Below are positions 2,764-39,009 of a stretch of DNA of 64,000 nucleotides, piece after piece. The translations under genes and the position numbers were made by a program. Source of the DNA: Nitrososphaeraceae archaeon (GTDB lineage: Archaea; Thermoproteota; Nitrososphaeria; Nitrososphaerales; Nitrososphaeraceae); NCBI GenBank assembly GCA_009377575.1, contig WHTU01000002.1:46491-110490 (forward strand), written 5' to 3'. The notes below the pieces were generated by a model. It was not told the origin of the DNA. It worked only from the letters and a program-made list of their open reading frames with translations, and did not search any database. How positions within the stretch are numbered: the stretch's first letter is position 1; each line of letters opens with the position of its first letter.

Positions 2764-4641
2764 CTACCCGTACTTATATGAGACTCCCTTAGTGCCCCGA
2801 GGATGTCTCCATAAGGTTTCATACGCACAGGTGCCACACTCTATGCATCCCTCATGTTGCAGAATTACATCCCCATTCTCGCAGCTATAACAACGCGTGG
2901 GACACAAAGAGACCATCTTTTGCATAAATTCACTTCGAGGCTTTGTCACCTGTATATGCGGGAATGTATCATCATTGTAATCCAGTTTCGCAATCCTTTC
3001 CTGTAGTGATGGAGTAGATGGAACATAGTTACTATCTATCGTCTTGCCCAATCTATCGGCTAGCTCAACTGGAACATTTACGTAAGTATCAACAGATTCA
3101 ACCAAAGGTAATAGACGGTCAAATCCGAGCATATTTGCAAATCCTACTGCAATTCCTCTTAAAGTGCCGCTGGACATTAGCTTAAAAATCATCCCATATC
3201 TAGAACCTACTATGTCCTTTGGAATATTCTTGCTGCAATCAAGGAAAATCTTAAGGTAATCCTTGTCAATTTCTTTCATGTCTCTTGTATATGGGCTCTC
3301 TTCCACAGACTTTGTGTAGAAATTACCAAGATATTGCTCATCAAAGTTGTTCCTATCTAAGGACCGCGCTACAGCGTTTGCTGCCCTTACTGCGTCATCT
3401 ATGCCCACATTAAGCCCTTCAATTCTTGGACCGACAAACACACCTCGACCTGCTGCATCGCCTACAAAAAGTATATTTTTATAATAAGGGGCTTTCATTC
3501 TACATCGCTTGCCATCAGGAATTAATTTAGTGCTATATTCTAATTCTACGTAATTATCGCCAAATTCATAGTTGTATTTTTCTACTAGCTCATTCTCTAG
3601 AAAGGCGATCCTACTCCCTATCTCATCTTTTGTCCCATACTTGCCGCTTTCGATTAGTCGCTTAATTCCATCTCTAGAATAGTATTCAGAGCGGAGATTG
3701 TTCCAGGTCTTTAGTAGCTTGACTGCCATAAAGTGTTGGCGAATCTCTTCGTCCTTTGAGATCAAGGCTTGACTAGATTTCTTTGCAGGCACTCTATCCT
3801 TGACAAATTCTGCTACTAACTTATTTCGTATTAGAGTATCCATTAGTCGTGAGGGTTCAACTGGATTATCCATCAAAGAGTCCATGTGATATACTGCTCC
3901 GAGAGAGATGGTATCTCTATTCGTATACAGAAAGCCTCCGCCTATATGATTCATAGTCACATCTCCCGCGAACAAATGCGCAGCCCCTTCTTCACTTGTA
4001 ACATTAAATCTCTCTTCCAAAATTGTTTCAGGAAGTTTAATTACGACTTTTACTCCTTGGTAAAGCTGTTCAGAGGAGAACTTGTTTCGCGCTTTGGTAA
4101 CTTCTGCTAGTTCAGAGTTTACGCCATCAGCTGCAATGACAGCTTTTACTCTAAATGGTTCTAGCTCATCTGTATCTATCACAATATCACTGCTACCCTG
4201 TTCCCATCTAACAGATCTCATATGGACTCCGGATATTATCCCTCCCCCCATCTTTTCTGACATATCACTTGCCTCTTTGGCAAGCCATGGAATGAGTTTA
4301 CTCAGCAAGACAGAGTAGGCGTAATTGATTTGATATTCGTGGACAGGAGTTAAGTCAATTGAATATAATTTATCTTTAGATGTAGCGTGTAATATATACC
4401 GCGTTATGGGTCGCTCATAGGGGGCATCGTCAATAAATTCCCGTCCAAATACATCCTCAATATTATATACTCTACCGTTCTTAGGTTTTTTTGAATAGAG
4501 AATCCCTCCTGAAATGTTCTTAGTTCCTGCGGTGTTCCCAGCCTCAAGTAACACAGCTTGTTTTCCAAGGTTCGCAAGTTGGCGTAGTGCCGTAAGCCCA
4601 CTTGTTCCTCCTCCAACTATTGCAACATCATATCTTTCCAT
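2764..4641 (-). CDS. fixC: ETF:quinone oxidoreductase FixC fused to FixX-type ferredoxin
   Basis: The 625-aa flavoprotein begins with a Rossmann FAD motif (VAIVGGGTSG, residues 7-16), has a second flavin motif AVIAADGVNSE (about 167-177), and a third, FVGDAAGRGVF, at about 395, as in FixC/ETF-QO. The last 55 residues carry CPTRCYSC and GCIECGTC, the cysteines of a FixX ferredoxin-like [4Fe-4S] domain, so FixC and FixX are one chain here. The enzyme passes electrons from reduced ETF to the membrane quinone pool. It is the third gene of an operon, 3 bp after etfA. FixC and FixX are separate in classical fixABCX operons, and fused in mitochondrial-type ETF-QO. Confidence 0.9.
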   Translation of the reverse strand: MERYDVAIVGGGTSGLTALRQLANLGKQAVLLEAGNTAGTKNISGGILYSKKPKNGRVYNIEDVFGREFIDDAPYERPITRYILHATSKDKLYSIDLTPVHEYQINYAYSVLLSKLIPWLAKEASDMSEKMGGGIISGVHMRSVRWEQGSSDIVIDTDELEPFRVKAVIAADGVNSELAEVTKARNKFSSEQLYQGVKVVIKLPETILEERFNVTSEEGAAHLFAGDVTMNHIGGGFLYTNRDTISLGAVYHMDSLMDNPVEPSRLMDTLIRNKLVAEFVKDRVPAKKSSQALISKDEEIRQHFMAVKLLKTWNNLRSEYYSRDGIKRLIESGKYGTKDEIGSRIAFLENELVEKYNYEFGDNYVELEYSTKLIPDGKRCRMKAPYYKNILFVGDAAGRGVFVGPRIEGLNVGIDDAVRAANAVARSLDRNNFDEQYLGNFYTKSVEESPYTRDMKEIDKDYLKIFLDCSKNIPKDIVGSRYGMIFKLMSSGTLRGIAVGFANMLGFDRLLPLVESVDTYVNVPVELADRLGKTIDSNYVPSTPSLQERIAKLDYNDDTFPHIQVTKPRSEFMQKMVSLCPTRCYSCENGDVILQHEGCIECGTCAYETLWRHPRGTKGVSYKYG

Positions 4642-33489: not shown

Positions 33490-34214
33490 TGAATGAGGAA
33501 CGCTTTCTACAGTACGTTCTATTCATACGTACCCGAAAGCTTAGAGGTTCAAGTTTTCCTAATTTAGCCCTCCTTAATGACTTACAACTTCTTGAAGTTA
33601 GGCTTTTAAGAGATCCCTGAATATCCCCTATTAATCGGGCGGATGCTATTCACTAGATATAAAGAGTTATCAATAAGCGCCTTGTCAAAACTATATTCTT
33701 GTAAAATTTCCTATATGCAACGGCTCCTACATTGGTGTTTTAAACTGATACGGTCTATCAATTGTGTATAAAAAACGCTTTTGAAATTGCGAACATTCGA
33801 TTTTCCAATGGCCAATTTGGTCGTAACATAGATATTGCTTAAAAAAACAAGAGCTATAATTCTATTGTTTGGATCACGATCTAGTTGGTACTAACATAGA
33901 ATGATTTGATCAAGGCATGACCGAGAAGTCACCTTTTGAAGAGCGCATAACCTGCATATCTCAATGTATGGTCGTTTCATAATCCCTCCTGAACATCTAG
34001 CACAGGTTCCTCTGGCAACTATCAACTTCTATTGATAGTATTTAGAATTCCATGCACCTTGGGAAATCTAGCTGCTCCTGTAGCTAGAAACAAGTAAAGA
34101 TAATGCAAATTCTGGATAGGCTGATGGGTGTAAAAAAATTGGTAAACTGTACACTTTGATACCATATTTAGTAATTATTCAAACTTAATAATTTCCCCTC
34201 TTTCCCTCACATTC
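33490..34214. other. 725-bp intergenic region, no supported gene
   Basis: AT-rich DNA between convergent rps27ae and pus10 with no open frame of note. T-rich stretches just after rps27ae could act in termination. No RNA fold was identified. Confidence 0.4.
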
Positions 34215-35339
34215 TTACGAATGAAGATCGCTAAAAACCTCTAGGGCATGTTGGCCTCGTAACCATACATCTATAATATCAAAGTTTAAGCATTCACACT
34301 TCAGCCCAAGTAGACCTGAAATGTTAGGTTCGCAATACTCCTTCCCACCCACGAACTGTTTAATATGTAACCCGCCTTCTGCGATAAGTTCCAATTCAAA
34401 ATTCTTCCCATCGATCTTAACTATTTTTACGCTGTGTACATCCCTACTGATGATCCTTTTCTTGTTCCTAAACCAGATCGTGCGATTGCTAAGTGAAGTT
34501 AAGCATTCAAGTTCTTTACTACTAACTAATCTTTCTGTAATAACTGAAATCCTTGTCATAGAAACATATTTCATGGGATATTGTGGTAAATTCTTGGAGG
34601 CATTTAGTACAAATAGTTCAATCCCTTTTTCATTCAAACTGACATTGTGTTCAACTATAATTCGCCGCTTTGGTTTGATAATCTCGGCAAAAAATGGTCT
34701 ACCCTTACCAAGTACAAGACTTTCTTTGTCCTCGCCACCGATCCATGAAAATTTTACGTTTACGCCTGAAGTGATCTGCTTAAGATACTCAGACACCACT
34801 TCTTCCAAACTAAAGAACCTGCCATATTTAGAGTCATCCTGTAAAAATTGAGCCTTTGTAATTGCTACCCCTCTTTGTTTCTGAGGTATCCCGCGCCTCT
34901 TCTTCAGGTACTTGCAGGCTAGTACAATAGGTGTGGGAACAAGATTAAAAAAGAATTCATTCTCCTCATTAATCACTAGATCTATTCGGAGATCCGGGGA
35001 CGAGTAATCCAATTCCTTATTCAGAGCTTGTTTGAACATATCCCTAAGATTTGTCAAAAACTGATTCTTGATGTTATTTCTTCCCTTAACCCTCAATCTT
35101 GACCTAATATTGTCCTCTCTTTCTATGTAAGAGGAAGGAAGCGAGACTCCTATCTGAAATGTTCGAAATTCGTATCCTTCATTCACTTTGCTGATGAGTG
35201 CTTTATTTATAGTCTCCAACTTGTTCATCAGATTGTTACAAATAAAGCAGGGGTTTGCTTCTTCTAGGTTTTTTCTGCCCCCAAATCCTTGTCTAATCCT
35301 GCACTCTTTGCATAAGGATTCGTAATTTTTCAAATCCAA
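34215..35339 (-). CDS. pus10: tRNA pseudouridine synthase Pus10
   Basis: Pus10 makes pseudouridine 54 and 55 in the T-loop of archaeal tRNAs. The 374-aa protein has an N-terminal zinc region (CKECRIRQG and CFICNNL, CxxC pairs), a THUMP-like middle, and the catalytic domain with WIGGEDKESLVLGKGRPFFAEI (about 198-220), where the Asp of the GxED segment is the likely nucleophile, and a C-terminal GGLHIKQFVGG. The start is TTG at 35339. It follows srp54 after 26 bp on the same strand. Confidence 0.9.
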   Translation of the reverse strand: MDLKNYESLCKECRIRQGFGGRKNLEEANPCFICNNLMNKLETINKALISKVNEGYEFRTFQIGVSLPSSYIEREDNIRSRLRVKGRNNIKNQFLTNLRDMFKQALNKELDYSSPDLRIDLVINEENEFFFNLVPTPIVLACKYLKKRRGIPQKQRGVAITKAQFLQDDSKYGRFFSLEEVVSEYLKQITSGVNVKFSWIGGEDKESLVLGKGRPFFAEIIKPKRRIIVEHNVSLNEKGIELFVLNASKNLPQYPMKYVSMTRISVITERLVSSKELECLTSLSNRTIWFRNKKRIISRDVHSVKIVKIDGKNFELELIAEGGLHIKQFVGGKEYCEPNISGLLGLKCECLNFDIIDVWLRGQHALEVFSDLHS

Positions 35340-35365
35340 GTACGAAGTTAATCCTAAATTACTAG

Positions 35366-36733
35366 CTATCCTATCCCAAATCTTCGGAGCATTCCCTGCA
35401 TCTGTCTTCCTTTTGCCTGCTTCATAACCGCTTTAGAATTACTGTACTGCTTAATAAGGTCCTTGACATCATGTTCAGTCAGTCCCGATCCTCGGGCTAT
35501 TCGTTTCCTCCTCGAATCATTCACGATGTCCGGATCGGAGCGCTCAGCTGATGCCATAGACTGAATAATAACTCTCCATTTTTCCAACTTCCCTTGGATC
35601 GCATCGAGCTGGTCTTCCTTTACCATTCCAGATAATCCAGGAAGGTTATCTATGATATTCCTGAGACCCATTTTTCCGACATTCTCCATCTGCGAATAAA
35701 AGTCTTCTATCGTCATCTTCCCACTTAACACCCTTTTTGCCTGATTTTCATCTGCCTGAAGTTCTAATCCTTTGGCCATTTCAAGCAATGCCTTTATATC
35801 ACCCATCCCAAGCAGGCGCCCAACGAATCGTGTTGGAGAGAACAGTTCCAAATCATCAATTCTTTCACCGGTACCGATGAACATTACCTTGGCTCCTGTA
35901 GCTACTACAGCAGCGAGAACACCTCCGCCTTTTGCCGTACCGTCCAGTTTTGTAATAGCTATACCCCCAATTGGAGCAGCACTATGGAACGCCTTAGCCT
36001 GGCTAAAAGCCTGCTGACCTATAGTACCATCGATCACCAACAATACTAGTTCTGGTTTGGCGATTTCGTACATCCCTGTCATCTCGACCAAGAGACCAGA
36101 TTCTTCCTTATGTCTGCCTGCAGTATCGACGATTACAATGTCGATGTTCTCTTTTCGGAAATAATCGATCCCGTCCCCAACAATCTTTATGGCATCGACT
36201 TCACCTTCTTTACCATACACCTCCACGTTGATCTTGCTACAGTTCATCCTTAATTGGGTCAGGGCCCCGGGCCGAAATGTGTCTGCTCCGACCACGCCGA
36301 CTCTGTGTCCATGCTTGGTTAACCATCTAGCCAACTTTGCGGAAACTGTGGTCTTGCCACTGCCTTGTATTCCTAACATGAGCACAACGTTGAGTTTTCC
36401 CGCTTTGAAGGGAAATAGTTCTCCCTCAGGTTGAACTGATTTATCGATGGTTTTTATTTCTTCACCTTTATAGCCAAGGAGTTTCGCTAATTCGCTGTAC
36501 AGTATTGTGATTATATGATCTTTACGAGAGAGGCCCTTAGGTGGCTGTTCATTAAGGCAGCGCTCTCTTATGTTCTGGGTGATAGTAAGAACAAGCTTTA
36601 CATTAACGTCAGACTGCAATAATGCCCTTTGAATGTCCTTACAAAGAGATTCTATTAGCTCACGATTGATGTCAGATGCGCCAACGATCTTCTTTAGCGC
36701 GCTTCTCAAATTTGTACGAAGACTGTCTAACAT
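35366..36733 (-). CDS. srp54: signal recognition particle GTPase SRP54
   Basis: The 455-aa protein binds 7S RNA and signal peptides and targets ribosomes to the membrane with FtsY. The N domain is helical. The G domain has GIQGSGKTTVSAKLARWL (about 107-124), DTAGRH, and TKLDGTAKGGG (G4 and a SRP-type closing loop). The C-terminal M domain has GLTEHDVKDLI and a Met/Gln-rich tail (KGRQMQGMLRRFG). The length is normal for archaeal SRP54. It lies between dph6 and pus10 on the same strand. Confidence 0.97.
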   Translation of the reverse strand: MLDSLRTNLRSALKKIVGASDINRELIESLCKDIQRALLQSDVNVKLVLTITQNIRERCLNEQPPKGLSRKDHIITILYSELAKLLGYKGEEIKTIDKSVQPEGELFPFKAGKLNVVLMLGIQGSGKTTVSAKLARWLTKHGHRVGVVGADTFRPGALTQLRMNCSKINVEVYGKEGEVDAIKIVGDGIDYFRKENIDIVIVDTAGRHKEESGLLVEMTGMYEIAKPELVLLVIDGTIGQQAFSQAKAFHSAAPIGGIAITKLDGTAKGGGVLAAVVATGAKVMFIGTGERIDDLELFSPTRFVGRLLGMGDIKALLEMAKGLELQADENQAKRVLSGKMTIEDFYSQMENVGKMGLRNIIDNLPGLSGMVKEDQLDAIQGKLEKWRVIIQSMASAERSDPDIVNDSRRKRIARGSGLTEHDVKDLIKQYSNSKAVMKQAKGRQMQGMLRRFGIG

Positions 36734-36746
36734 ATCTTTCCTGTCC

Positions 36747-37433
36747 TTATTTTGATTTCAGACCTACCCTATTTAATTTAAAAATTCCACGTTGGCCATC
36801 CCATTGAATTTGAGATTCCATAATATCAATTATATCGTGGTGGATAGGACTATCCAGGACTAAGGTTTCTGCCTCTCCTCCTTCAAAATTCAAATTAAAG
36901 CGATTACGATCACTTAACTGCATCAATCTGTCTAGTGCCTTCTCGTCGATTATTTTCCCCAACCAGTATTTGTCTAGTCCCATAGCCGATACACTTGTTA
37001 TGAGAGTTTTGAAGCCATTAGAAATTAGTTCTCTCATAAACTTGACTGCAGGTCTACCCCACAACGGATTAACAACACGAAGACCATACTTAGAACAGCA
37101 AATGCTGAAATGGGAATTTTGAAATTTACTCGAAATCCCGCCGTGCACAATTCCATCAATATCATACTCTGCCCTTGCCTGCTTGATTAGACCCTCAAGC
37201 GCTTCTAATTCACAGTGTAAATCGATTCCCTTAACTGAAGATACTAAGTGAGGGAGTCTTATCGCCTTCGCCAATAAAGGAGTGATTTCGACATTCGGAA
37301 AATGAAAAAGTAGGCTTTCGTCGCTTGGCGGAGATAAGGTCAACAGGCATCTGATTTCGTGACCATACCTCATGCTTTCATAGACTGCATAGGTACTATC
37401 CTTCCCGCCAGAAAAAAGACATCCAAGCCTCAT
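36747..37433 (-). CDS. dph6: diphthine-ammonia ligase (Dph6-like ATP-pyrophosphatase)
   Basis: The 228-aa protein has the PP-loop SGGKDSTYAVYESMRYG (about 8-24) and the family features VHGGISSKFQN (about 96-106) and NPLWGRPAVKFM (about 120-131). Dph6 performs the last step of diphthamide formation on elongation factor 2, amidating diphthine with ammonium and ATP. The length matches archaeal MJ0570-like proteins. It heads the dph6-srp54-pus10 run, 13 bp before srp54, and all three act on translation components. Confidence 0.9.
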   Translation of the reverse strand: MRLGCLFSGGKDSTYAVYESMRYGHEIRCLLTLSPPSDESLLFHFPNVEITPLLAKAIRLPHLVSSVKGIDLHCELEALEGLIKQARAEYDIDGIVHGGISSKFQNSHFSICCSKYGLRVVNPLWGRPAVKFMRELISNGFKTLITSVSAMGLDKYWLGKIIDEKALDRLMQLSDRNRFNLNFEGGEAETLVLDSPIHHDIIDIMESQIQWDGQRGIFKLNRVGLKSK

Positions 37434-37780
37434 TCGGGTTACCTTCCTTATGTGGCTATAAATAAGTATTGAAGCAAGTTAAGAAAGTCTCTCTTCCCTC
37501 TTCCTCACTGGTCGACTAGGCGAAAGCAGAGAAAAGAAGAATGGACAGCTCCCATTCGAGCAGATTGCTTTTAAGCATTAGCACTTACAAAGTAACATAG
37601 ATGCGTTAGTGCGTAAAGGATTGATTGAAGATCTTGGAGCAGGAATATCTCAAATAGGTGACCTTATTGAACCAACCGCCAACCCCTCTCTTGAGGAATG
37701 TCATCACATCGATCCTACAGAAGGTATCTGAGATCTGCGTCCTCCTCAATTCTTCTCATTCAGCGATGTAGGCCGCTCAT
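37434..37780. other. intergenic region before the GH3 remnant
   Basis: No supported gene is present. A 40-codon frame from a GTG near 37612 (containing VRKGLIEDLGAGISQIGD) reads like protein but has no homology I recognise. Base composition rises sharply in GC after about 37780, where the glycosidase remnant begins. Confidence 0.35.
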
Positions 37781-38483
37781 CTACCGAAGCGCCTGCCGGC
37801 CAGGGGGTGCCTCGGCCGTCAGTACGAGATCGTCAGCGGCTTTGCCCAACCTGACCCGGTAGTTACCTTCGGCGATGTGCGGCCGGGTCGATAATCGCGT
37901 CCAGCCAGTGGCGGTTAGTCTCGTTGCAGTTGAGTGAGTAGTGCTTAATCGTCGAGATCACGCCCTTGCCCTGGATCCCGTTGATCGACTCGGCGGCGAG
38001 CACGGCACTCAGTACCGGATCCTCCGAAAGATACTCGAAATTACGCCCGTTGCCTGGGTCTCGAGCGAGATTGATGCCGCCCGCCAGCTGGACATTGAAT
38101 CCCCTGCTTCGCGCCTCAAAGCGATCATGCGGCCACCTGCACGAGCGAGGTCGGAGTTGAAACTCGACCCGAGCGCGATGCTCGCGGGCAGCGCGGTGGC
38201 TGTGTCGCCCTCACGGAACCCGGGGTTAATGACACCTAGGCTTGCGTTGCTCATCAGAAGCGCTGGTACACCTAGGCGCGGCACGCCAGGCGTGTAACCC
38301 GAGCTCATGGGTATCCCCTCGGGGATGCGTTCGTCCCGGGCTAGCGGAATGACCCGGTTTTCCCCCCATCACGCTGACAACGAGGAAGAATCGTTCGTCG
38401 TCAGTCATCTGCTCTTCGACCTCACGCGCCAGCACATCGGCCGGCGAATGTTGTGTAGCTACTGTTCTAGTCTCTTGCACCAA
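37781..38483 (-). pseudogene. decayed bacterial GH3 beta-glucosidase
   Basis: This GC-rich segment encodes, on the minus strand, a family 3 glycoside hydrolase in three frames. The N-part is EEQMTDDERFFLVVSVMGG. A frameshift at a G6 run (about 38363-38368) leads to ENRVIPLARDERIPEGIP and SSGYTPGVPRLGVPALLMS. A second frameshift near 38120 leads to FNVQLAGGINLARDPGNGRN, then FEYLSEDPVLSAVLAAESIN and STIKHYSLNCNETNRHW. Then the sequence jumps from IIDPAAH directly to the C-terminal end EGNYRVRLGKAADDLVLTAE with stop at 37781. The bulk of the enzyme is deleted. Composition is unlike the neighbours, indicating transfer from a high-GC bacterium. Confidence 0.85.
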
Positions 38484-38532
38484 GACAGTTTATACAAGAG
38501 ATAATATTCACTCTACCCAAAGAGTTTAACGG

Positions 38533-38706
38533 TCAGCTGCCTGTAGCAGAAGGGATGATAAGGTCTTTTGTATTATTGCACAGTAACGGCAACCAAATCG
38601 TCTGCGTACCATCTTCTGAATAATTCTTGAGTTGATCCTGGAAGCTGTCTCTATCCACTGGTTTTATTCTCAAGTTAGGATTGTCAGTGTCAAAGTTTAC
38701 AGCCAT
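38533..38706 (-). CDS. hypothetical 57-aa protein
   Basis: The frame begins with ATG at 38706 and encodes MAVNFDTDNPNLRIKPVDRD, continuing with FQDQLKNYSEDGTQTIWLPL and a Cys before the C-terminal IIPSATGS. The composition is that of a real acidic soluble protein, and codon use matches the archaeal neighbours rather than the GC-rich remnant beside it. No family is recognised. It may be functional or a fragment. Confidence 0.4.
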   Translation of the reverse strand: MAVNFDTDNPNLRIKPVDRDSFQDQLKNYSEDGTQTIWLPLLCNNTKDLIIPSATGS

Positions 38707-39009
38707 CCTGGAGTAAGCATTGAAAGGTCAGAAGTAGGATGCTCATGGATTAACGGTGGATGCTTCAGGACTCATAATCAACATCACTAAAAGCTAATTT
38801 CAGACGGCTCTTCCTTTTCATCATTAGCATCCCTGCCTCTGAAGGTTGTTAAGTAATAAATGTATAACCTGTGCAACTCGACTTCGAAGGTGAATATCAA
38901 AAGTGAAGAGATAGTATCAAGATGGACCAAGTAGTACTTTAAATACTGACTGGTCTAAATTTATTAATTGTCTGCATTTTGCTTGACTGGGCTACTAACA
39001 TCTTGTTTA

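Follow-up and report, generated by a model that had tools for sequence, protein, structure and literature searches.

The 64,000-nucleotide window analysed here, part of the genome of a Nitrososphaeraceae archaeon (G000:C222:46491-110490), contains on its minus strand, at positions 37771..38485, the remnant of a bacterial-type GH3 beta-glucosidase gene, which was delimited by tblastn, by GC content and by an orthologue in another species of the genus (G003). From sequence comparison we consider that a bacterial GH3 gene probably entered the ancestor of the genus, existed there as at least two selected copies and decayed independently, the feature in the window being a pseudogene.

Structure and composition of the remnant

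Four pieces of one GH3 protein follow each other along the remnant, alternating between two reading frames (-2, -3, -2, -3). With an intact relative of 717 residues (L025) as an ungapped tblastn query, residues 14-43, 48-120 (in two stretches), 123-204 and 683-708 aligned with the window, giving five stretches at 54-80% identity, none with E above 2.3e-5; the remaining matches, at E 0.8-6, are no better than chance. The N-terminal piece lies at 38352..38483 (minus strand, frame -2) and was recognised by tblastn with intact relatives. Two pieces of the GH3 N-domain come after it on the same strand, at 38123..38338 (frame -3; 69-77% identity to L025 in the two stretches) and at 37872..38117 (frame -2; 80% identity over 82 residues), and the C-terminal end of the gene is preserved at 37784..37886 (frame -3; 54% identity over 26 residues, the last of the five stretches). 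In the L025 search the remnant scored 156 bits, whereas none of 500 dinucleotide shuffles exceeded 23.5. Membership of the family is also seen in a whole-genome search with the Pfam GH3 N-domain profile, which scored 31.8 bits over one piece (cut-off 27); as single ORFs, two pieces scored 14.3 and 14.2 bits, below the cut-off, and the N-terminal ORF had no hit.

The match to L025 ends at residue 204 and restarts at residue 683, so that about 478 codons, or about two thirds of the protein, are gone before the last piece. No open frame spans the N-domain, the catalytic aspartate region (which we take to be marked by the SDW motif) and the C-domain, since nothing in the remnant significantly matches residues 205-682 of 717. 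Of the remnant's three changes of frame, two precede the deletion: one between about 38338 and 38367, and another between 38117 and 38123. The former stretch contains a run of six G (C6 on the plus strand) at 38362..38367, which is the likely place of the change because an indel separates the window from G003 at the run (near 38361). Intact relatives exist and the frame here is broken, as in a pseudogene. A plus-strand ORF of 118 amino acids is present in the window, and no Rfam match was found at the remnant at gathering scores.

GC content is 0.615 across the remnant (37771-38485) and 0.401 outside the segment described below; over 700 bases, GC content in the window is highest at the remnant, and the second separate peak reaches 0.477. 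These results bear out most of what the original prediction had read from the letters, namely a GC-rich island (the GC plot it proposed has now been made), beta-glucosidase pieces with the true C-terminal end, a missing middle, and two shifts of which one was placed at the G6 run. It had assigned the pieces to three frames, and in this respect it needs correction to two.

The site of the remnant and its state in congeners

The remnant lies within a segment (37474..38713) that is not in a congener, G001, where the flanking sequences are contiguous; the window holds about 1.25 kb more than G001 at this site. The outer parts of the segment are host-like in GC content (0.436 at 37475-37770 and 0.408 at 38486-38713), and three ORFs tested in them had no Pfam match. 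An imperfect direct repeat bounds the segment on the plus strand, with copies at 37463..37473 and 38714..38724 that are alike in 10 of 11 bases in the window and 12 of 13 in G003, a similarity equalled by about 1-3 in 100,000 random pairs of window positions. The repeat may be a target-site duplication, although a deletion between repeats in G001 would look alike, and the segment may be an eroded mobile element. Of the marks of capture by a transposon, the direct repeat was the one found; Pfam gave no transposase in the three outer ORFs, and visual inspection of the junctions showed no inverted termini.

G001, G002 and G004 have the same flanks and no GH3 sequence at the site. A different segment of about 577-590 bases, 91% alike between its two carriers and unrelated to that of the window, occupies the site in G004 (L129 about 4021-4598) and in G002 (L130). 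Because the site, at 37475-38756 of the window, differs between G000/G003, G001 and G002/G004, it exists in three states among five species.

The remnant is shared with a second species

In G003, contig C266 (4,633 bases) aligns over its whole length with window positions 34206-38882 (4,681 aligned bases, 94.4% identity), and contains the left-hand genes of the window together with about 170 bases of right flank, where the contig ends. The remnant itself is 91% identical in the two species and the deletion junction, which joins the third piece to the C-terminal end, is the same in both. Seven small indels separate the two sequences, six of them within the remnant and one outside it near 37749; three fall inside the plus-strand ORF. 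The remnant of G003 still has open frames of 116 codons (plus strand) and 157 codons (minus strand).

Placed in the ancestral frames, the differences between the G000 and G003 remnants are distributed 14:22:18 over codon positions 1:2:3 (a count that leaves out the 189 sites to which no frame was assigned, with their 16 differences), whereas three flanking genes are third-position rich at 14:9:25, 6:2:27 and 6:4:14. In two stretches of the remnant (195 and 162 bases) dN is 0.05-0.06 and dS 0.08-0.10, compared with 0.005-0.03 and 0.06-0.10 for two host genes; the resulting dN/dS of about 0.6, not 1, comes from few changes and fits either weak past constraint or none. Given the shared junction and the even spread of differences, the gene was therefore already broken when G000 and G003 separated, and has drifted since under little or no constraint. 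The decay to a non-functional state that had been predicted agrees with the broken frame and with this pattern of change.

The genomic context is that of an archaeon. G000 is a 3.89-Mb draft, and the neighbours of the remnant are ordinary archaeal genes encoding Pus10, SRP54, a diphthamide-synthase-like protein, a GTP-binding protein and an AAA ATPase. AmoA, a marker of archaeal ammonia oxidation, is encoded at C222:111171-111719, 681 bases beyond the end of the window on the same 153-kb contig, and was found in 60 of 70 genomes of the family.

Bacterial origin of the gene

Relatives were gathered by scanning genome contigs with six peptide patterns, and the best 80 of at least 555 confirmed relatives were kept. 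Among these 80, identities were 75-76% for Arthrobacter, 76% for Methanoculleus and another Euryarchaeota MAG, mostly 70-77% for Mycobacterium and 75% for Nocardioides; the nearest intact relatives belong to Arthrobacter, Mycobacterium and Nocardioides/Bradyrhizobium, which supplies the protein search for a donor that had been suggested. A composite read-through of 225 residues gave best-segment identities of mostly 70-77% to Actinomycetota and Alphaproteobacteria within the same 80, and a closer donor may lie outside them. All 429 of 429 relatives in plasmid records were below 60% identity. A virus was considered as the carrier, and one scan of viral contigs found no relative.

A phylogeny was estimated from 76 rows (the 80 loci minus L063 and L076, plus three remnants, making 81, minus five near-duplicates), and a second from 29 of these rows, picked by hand, on which we tested clades named once the result of the first tree was in view. 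The three longest remnants, those of the window (C222), its orthologue (C266) and a further G003 remnant (C237), form one clade with support of 100/99 in the larger tree and 99/97 in the smaller. This clade is placed inside a GH3 group composed mostly of Actinomycetota and Alphaproteobacteria, as expected of a GH3 gene acquired horizontally, and none of the 73 other rows of the larger tree falls within it. Arthrobacter is its sister (93/83 and 84/82, respectively), while Mycobacterium in that position is compatible with the 29-row data (p-AU 0.38). Trees that attach C222/C266 alone, or C237 alone, to Arthrobacter are rejected (p-AU 0.0036 each). Within the clade both trees put C237 beside the window copy (91/55 and 94/66), which conflicts with the clear orthology of the window and C266; the rows are short, that of C266 is decayed, and that of C237 covers 17% of tree columns and overlaps the window row in 50.

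The bacterial clade of Arthrobacter, Mycobacterium, Nocardioides and Bradyrhizobium enzymes represents the same subfamily as the remnant (clade support 99-100), from which the remnant differs in its broken frame, the deletion of some two thirds of its length, the little or no constraint upon it and its archaeal host. The same larger clade also takes in two genes from archaeal assemblies, that of Methanoculleus sp. UBA430 (L024) and the very similar Euryarchaeota MAG gene used as query above; their GC contents are 0.677 and 0.674, and unlike the remnant they are open over their full length. Grouping L024 with the remnants is rejected (p-AU 0.0003), and a gene of the Methanoculleus type was accordingly discarded as the parent. 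In its own right, L024:3677-5998 is a full-length, GC-rich, bacterial-type GH3 gene in a 354-kb Methanoculleus MAG contig, apparently an independent acquisition by the methanogen; the gene upstream is presumably a phosphoglycerate dehydrogenase, judging by its appearance.

Another intact GH3 gene is found closer at hand, in G005, an AmoA-bearing member of the same archaeal family (L015:7950-10406). Because it is only 29-37% identical to an enzyme of the remnant's subfamily, it belongs to another GH3 lineage and was likewise rejected as the parent. This gene, of 818 amino acids, is the only intact GH3 gene among 70 genomes of the family and stands directly downstream of a patatin-like phospholipase gene (L015:5720-10406).

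Other GH3 scraps in the genus

In a DNA search of 61 genomes, matches were obtained in four. The window's own genome has a second scrap at G000:C313 (79% over 87 bases by DNA, with a marginal protein match at E 0.0015); others are at G003:C237 (83% over 149 bases) and G004:C123 (76% over 91 bases, found by DNA alone), and G045 has a match of 37 bases at E 4.9e-4. Protein searches of 70 family genomes disclosed scraps at G001:C523 (63% over 54 residues) and, weakly, at G004:C235 (45% over 42 residues). GH3 scraps away from the window's site are thus present in four of the five genomes of the genus (G000, G003, G001 and G004); the protein search found none in G002, a genome that is just 78% complete.

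The wider distribution is patchy, as would follow from horizontal acquisition. Five of the 70 family genomes have a match, these being four of this genus and the divergent G005, and so do four of 400 genomes of the class at E 1e-10, three of this genus and again G005. The subfamily was not found outside the genus among these family and class genomes, which, with the position of the remnant clade, upholds the proposed transfer from a high-GC bacterium. No intact copy of the subfamily was found in the 70 or the 400 genomes, so the intact gene that was to be sought in relatives did not come to light.

The C237 piece is longer than the remnant in the window and has an unlike internal deletion; it and the C235 scrap are both downstream, on the same strand, of homologous genes that look membrane-protein-like by eye. 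This hints that the two may occupy one ancestral locus, a suggestion and nothing firmer because the neighbouring gene is present in several similar copies across the genus. The C237 remnant adjoins, at both edges (L010:2536-2649, 3438-3690), DNA that recurs elsewhere in the genus, as if the intergenic regions around it had been assembled from moved fragments. The C523 scrap (L134:1502-1822) adjoins a short frame which looks by eye like the beginning of a patatin gene, with no Pfam hit at 0.001, and is reminiscent of the patatin-GH3 pair of G005. The C313 scrap (L009:6695-8330) is found a few hundred bases beyond a multicopper oxidase frame cut by an in-frame stop, beyond which recognisable sequence continues; this is possibly a second dead gene.

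Signature of former selection

Between C222 and C237, whose overlap is 149 bases, differences by codon position are 4:0:21, with dN 0.036 and dS 1.24; between C222 and C313 they are 1:3:14 over 87 bases, with dN 0.086 and dS 1.09 over 84 bases. Genus-level dS in two host genes (0.48-0.99) is below the dS between the GH3 copies. Over these short overlaps, the excess of third-position differences indicates that the copies were under purifying selection for most of their divergence, whether in archaea or in the donor lineage, and so presumably encoded working enzymes. GC3 is 0.71 for C222 and 0.52-0.62 for C237, against 0.76-0.89 in five bacterial-type genes and 0.36-0.45 in five host genes; such intermediate values are as expected if the remnants were foreign genes that had partly adapted. 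Within the overlap of C222 and C237 the two values are 0.82 and 0.61.

Discussion

The history that we think probable would begin with a high-GC bacterium, from Actinomycetota or a close relative, as donor and the ancestor of the genus as recipient. At least two GH3 copies would have existed in that ancestor, remaining under purifying selection during their divergence, and one copy, or an already broken part of one, would have ended up next to the diphthamide-synthase-like gene in a common ancestor of G000 and G003. The loss of some 478 codons, including the region expected to hold the catalytic residue, would have preceded the split of these species, after which substitutions and small indels would have accumulated in each by drift under little or no constraint. 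The remaining copies would have decayed separately, leaving the different scraps of G000, G003, G001 and G004. We infer that selection acted on the copies while they were in the archaeon and that they arose by duplication rather than by a second transfer; the route by which a copy reached this site is conjectured in the same way. Transfer and decay, as originally predicted, are both retained here, but a direct path of one transfer into this site followed by decay is probably too simple, given that other copies diverged under selection.

The main rival supposes at least two separate transfers from one unsampled bacterial lineage, with divergence under selection in bacteria and decay soon after arrival. 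Some observations do count against our preferred history and in favour of this one: the site in C222 is empty of GH3 in three congeners (G001, G002 and G004), which is compatible with a late second transfer; GC3 in the overlap is nearer to bacteria in C222 than in C237, as if arrival times differed; and the dS of 1.24 between these copies exceeds the depth of the genus as estimated from two genes. Separate transfers are nevertheless unlikely, since the three longest remnants make up one clade with no other row inside it and neither type alone can be joined with Arthrobacter, while the scraps of G001, G004 and G003 point to presence in the genus ancestor and the GC3 of C237 is under the range of the five bacterial-type genes measured. 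We therefore favour ancestral entry with parallel loss. A single transfer straight into the site, bringing a gene that was never functional in its archaeal host and of which the other scraps are moved pieces, would suit the high GC content of the remnant and the small size and scattered occurrence of the scraps; it is improbable because the other copies diverged under selection, and dead fragments should differ evenly over codon positions, as the G000 and G003 remnants do, rather than as C222 differs from C237 and C313. Very little probability attaches to it.

A new role for the remnant, as a short peptide, an antisense ORF or an RNA, could be read into the plus-strand ORF of the window and the open frames of G003. 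GC-rich coding sequences often contain long antisense frames. With differences falling on each of the three codon positions of the ancestral frame, three indels within that ORF and the Rfam result at gathering scores, the sequences give us scarcely any reason to believe in such a role. Contamination, or a misassembled bacterial contig in the archaeal genome, was feared at the outset and is the explanation that a jump in GC content within a draft of 380 contigs might first bring to mind. It was ruled out by the orthologous remnant of G003, where junctions and left-hand genes are the same and identity is 91-94%, and by amoA on the remnant's own contig, and its probability is close to negligible.

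For ammonia-oxidising archaea, gene gains and losses are commonly deduced from which branches of a tree have a gene and which do not. In this case a lost gene is still visible, its loss can be dated against speciation, having occurred before G000 and G003 separated, and a sign of its former use survives in the codon positions. According to the main text of Sheridan et al. 2020 (PMC7603488), GH3 was acquired during the diversification of Nitrososphaerales, and transferred families were duplicated in some lineages of that order and lost in others; a count of the word stem 'pseudogen' in that main text gives 0, whereas in the present genomes the dead copies themselves can be seen. The remnant looks like a physical trace of this process of transfer, duplication and lineage-specific loss. 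Among the papers listed for ammonia-oxidising archaea under pseudogenes, genome expansion and beta-glucosidase or GH3, none reports it in its title or the opening of its abstract. We regard it as a well-supported case of a kind already known, not as a new kind of system, that is clearly dated and keeps a trace of its former use.

If our preferred history of ancestral entry and parallel loss is true, a carbohydrate-active enzyme was kept under selection and then dropped in parallel, which would bear on phases of organic carbon use in soil ammonia oxidisers. Belief and doubt are evenly poised over the broader suggestion that the whole genus once ran several working bacterial beta-glucosidases and later dropped them all independently, its intergenic DNA being a readable fossil record; the ability lost would then have been one of using sugars or trimming glycans, in organisms usually seen as autotrophs. 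Enzyme counts from single genomes of the group can mask recent losses of this sort.
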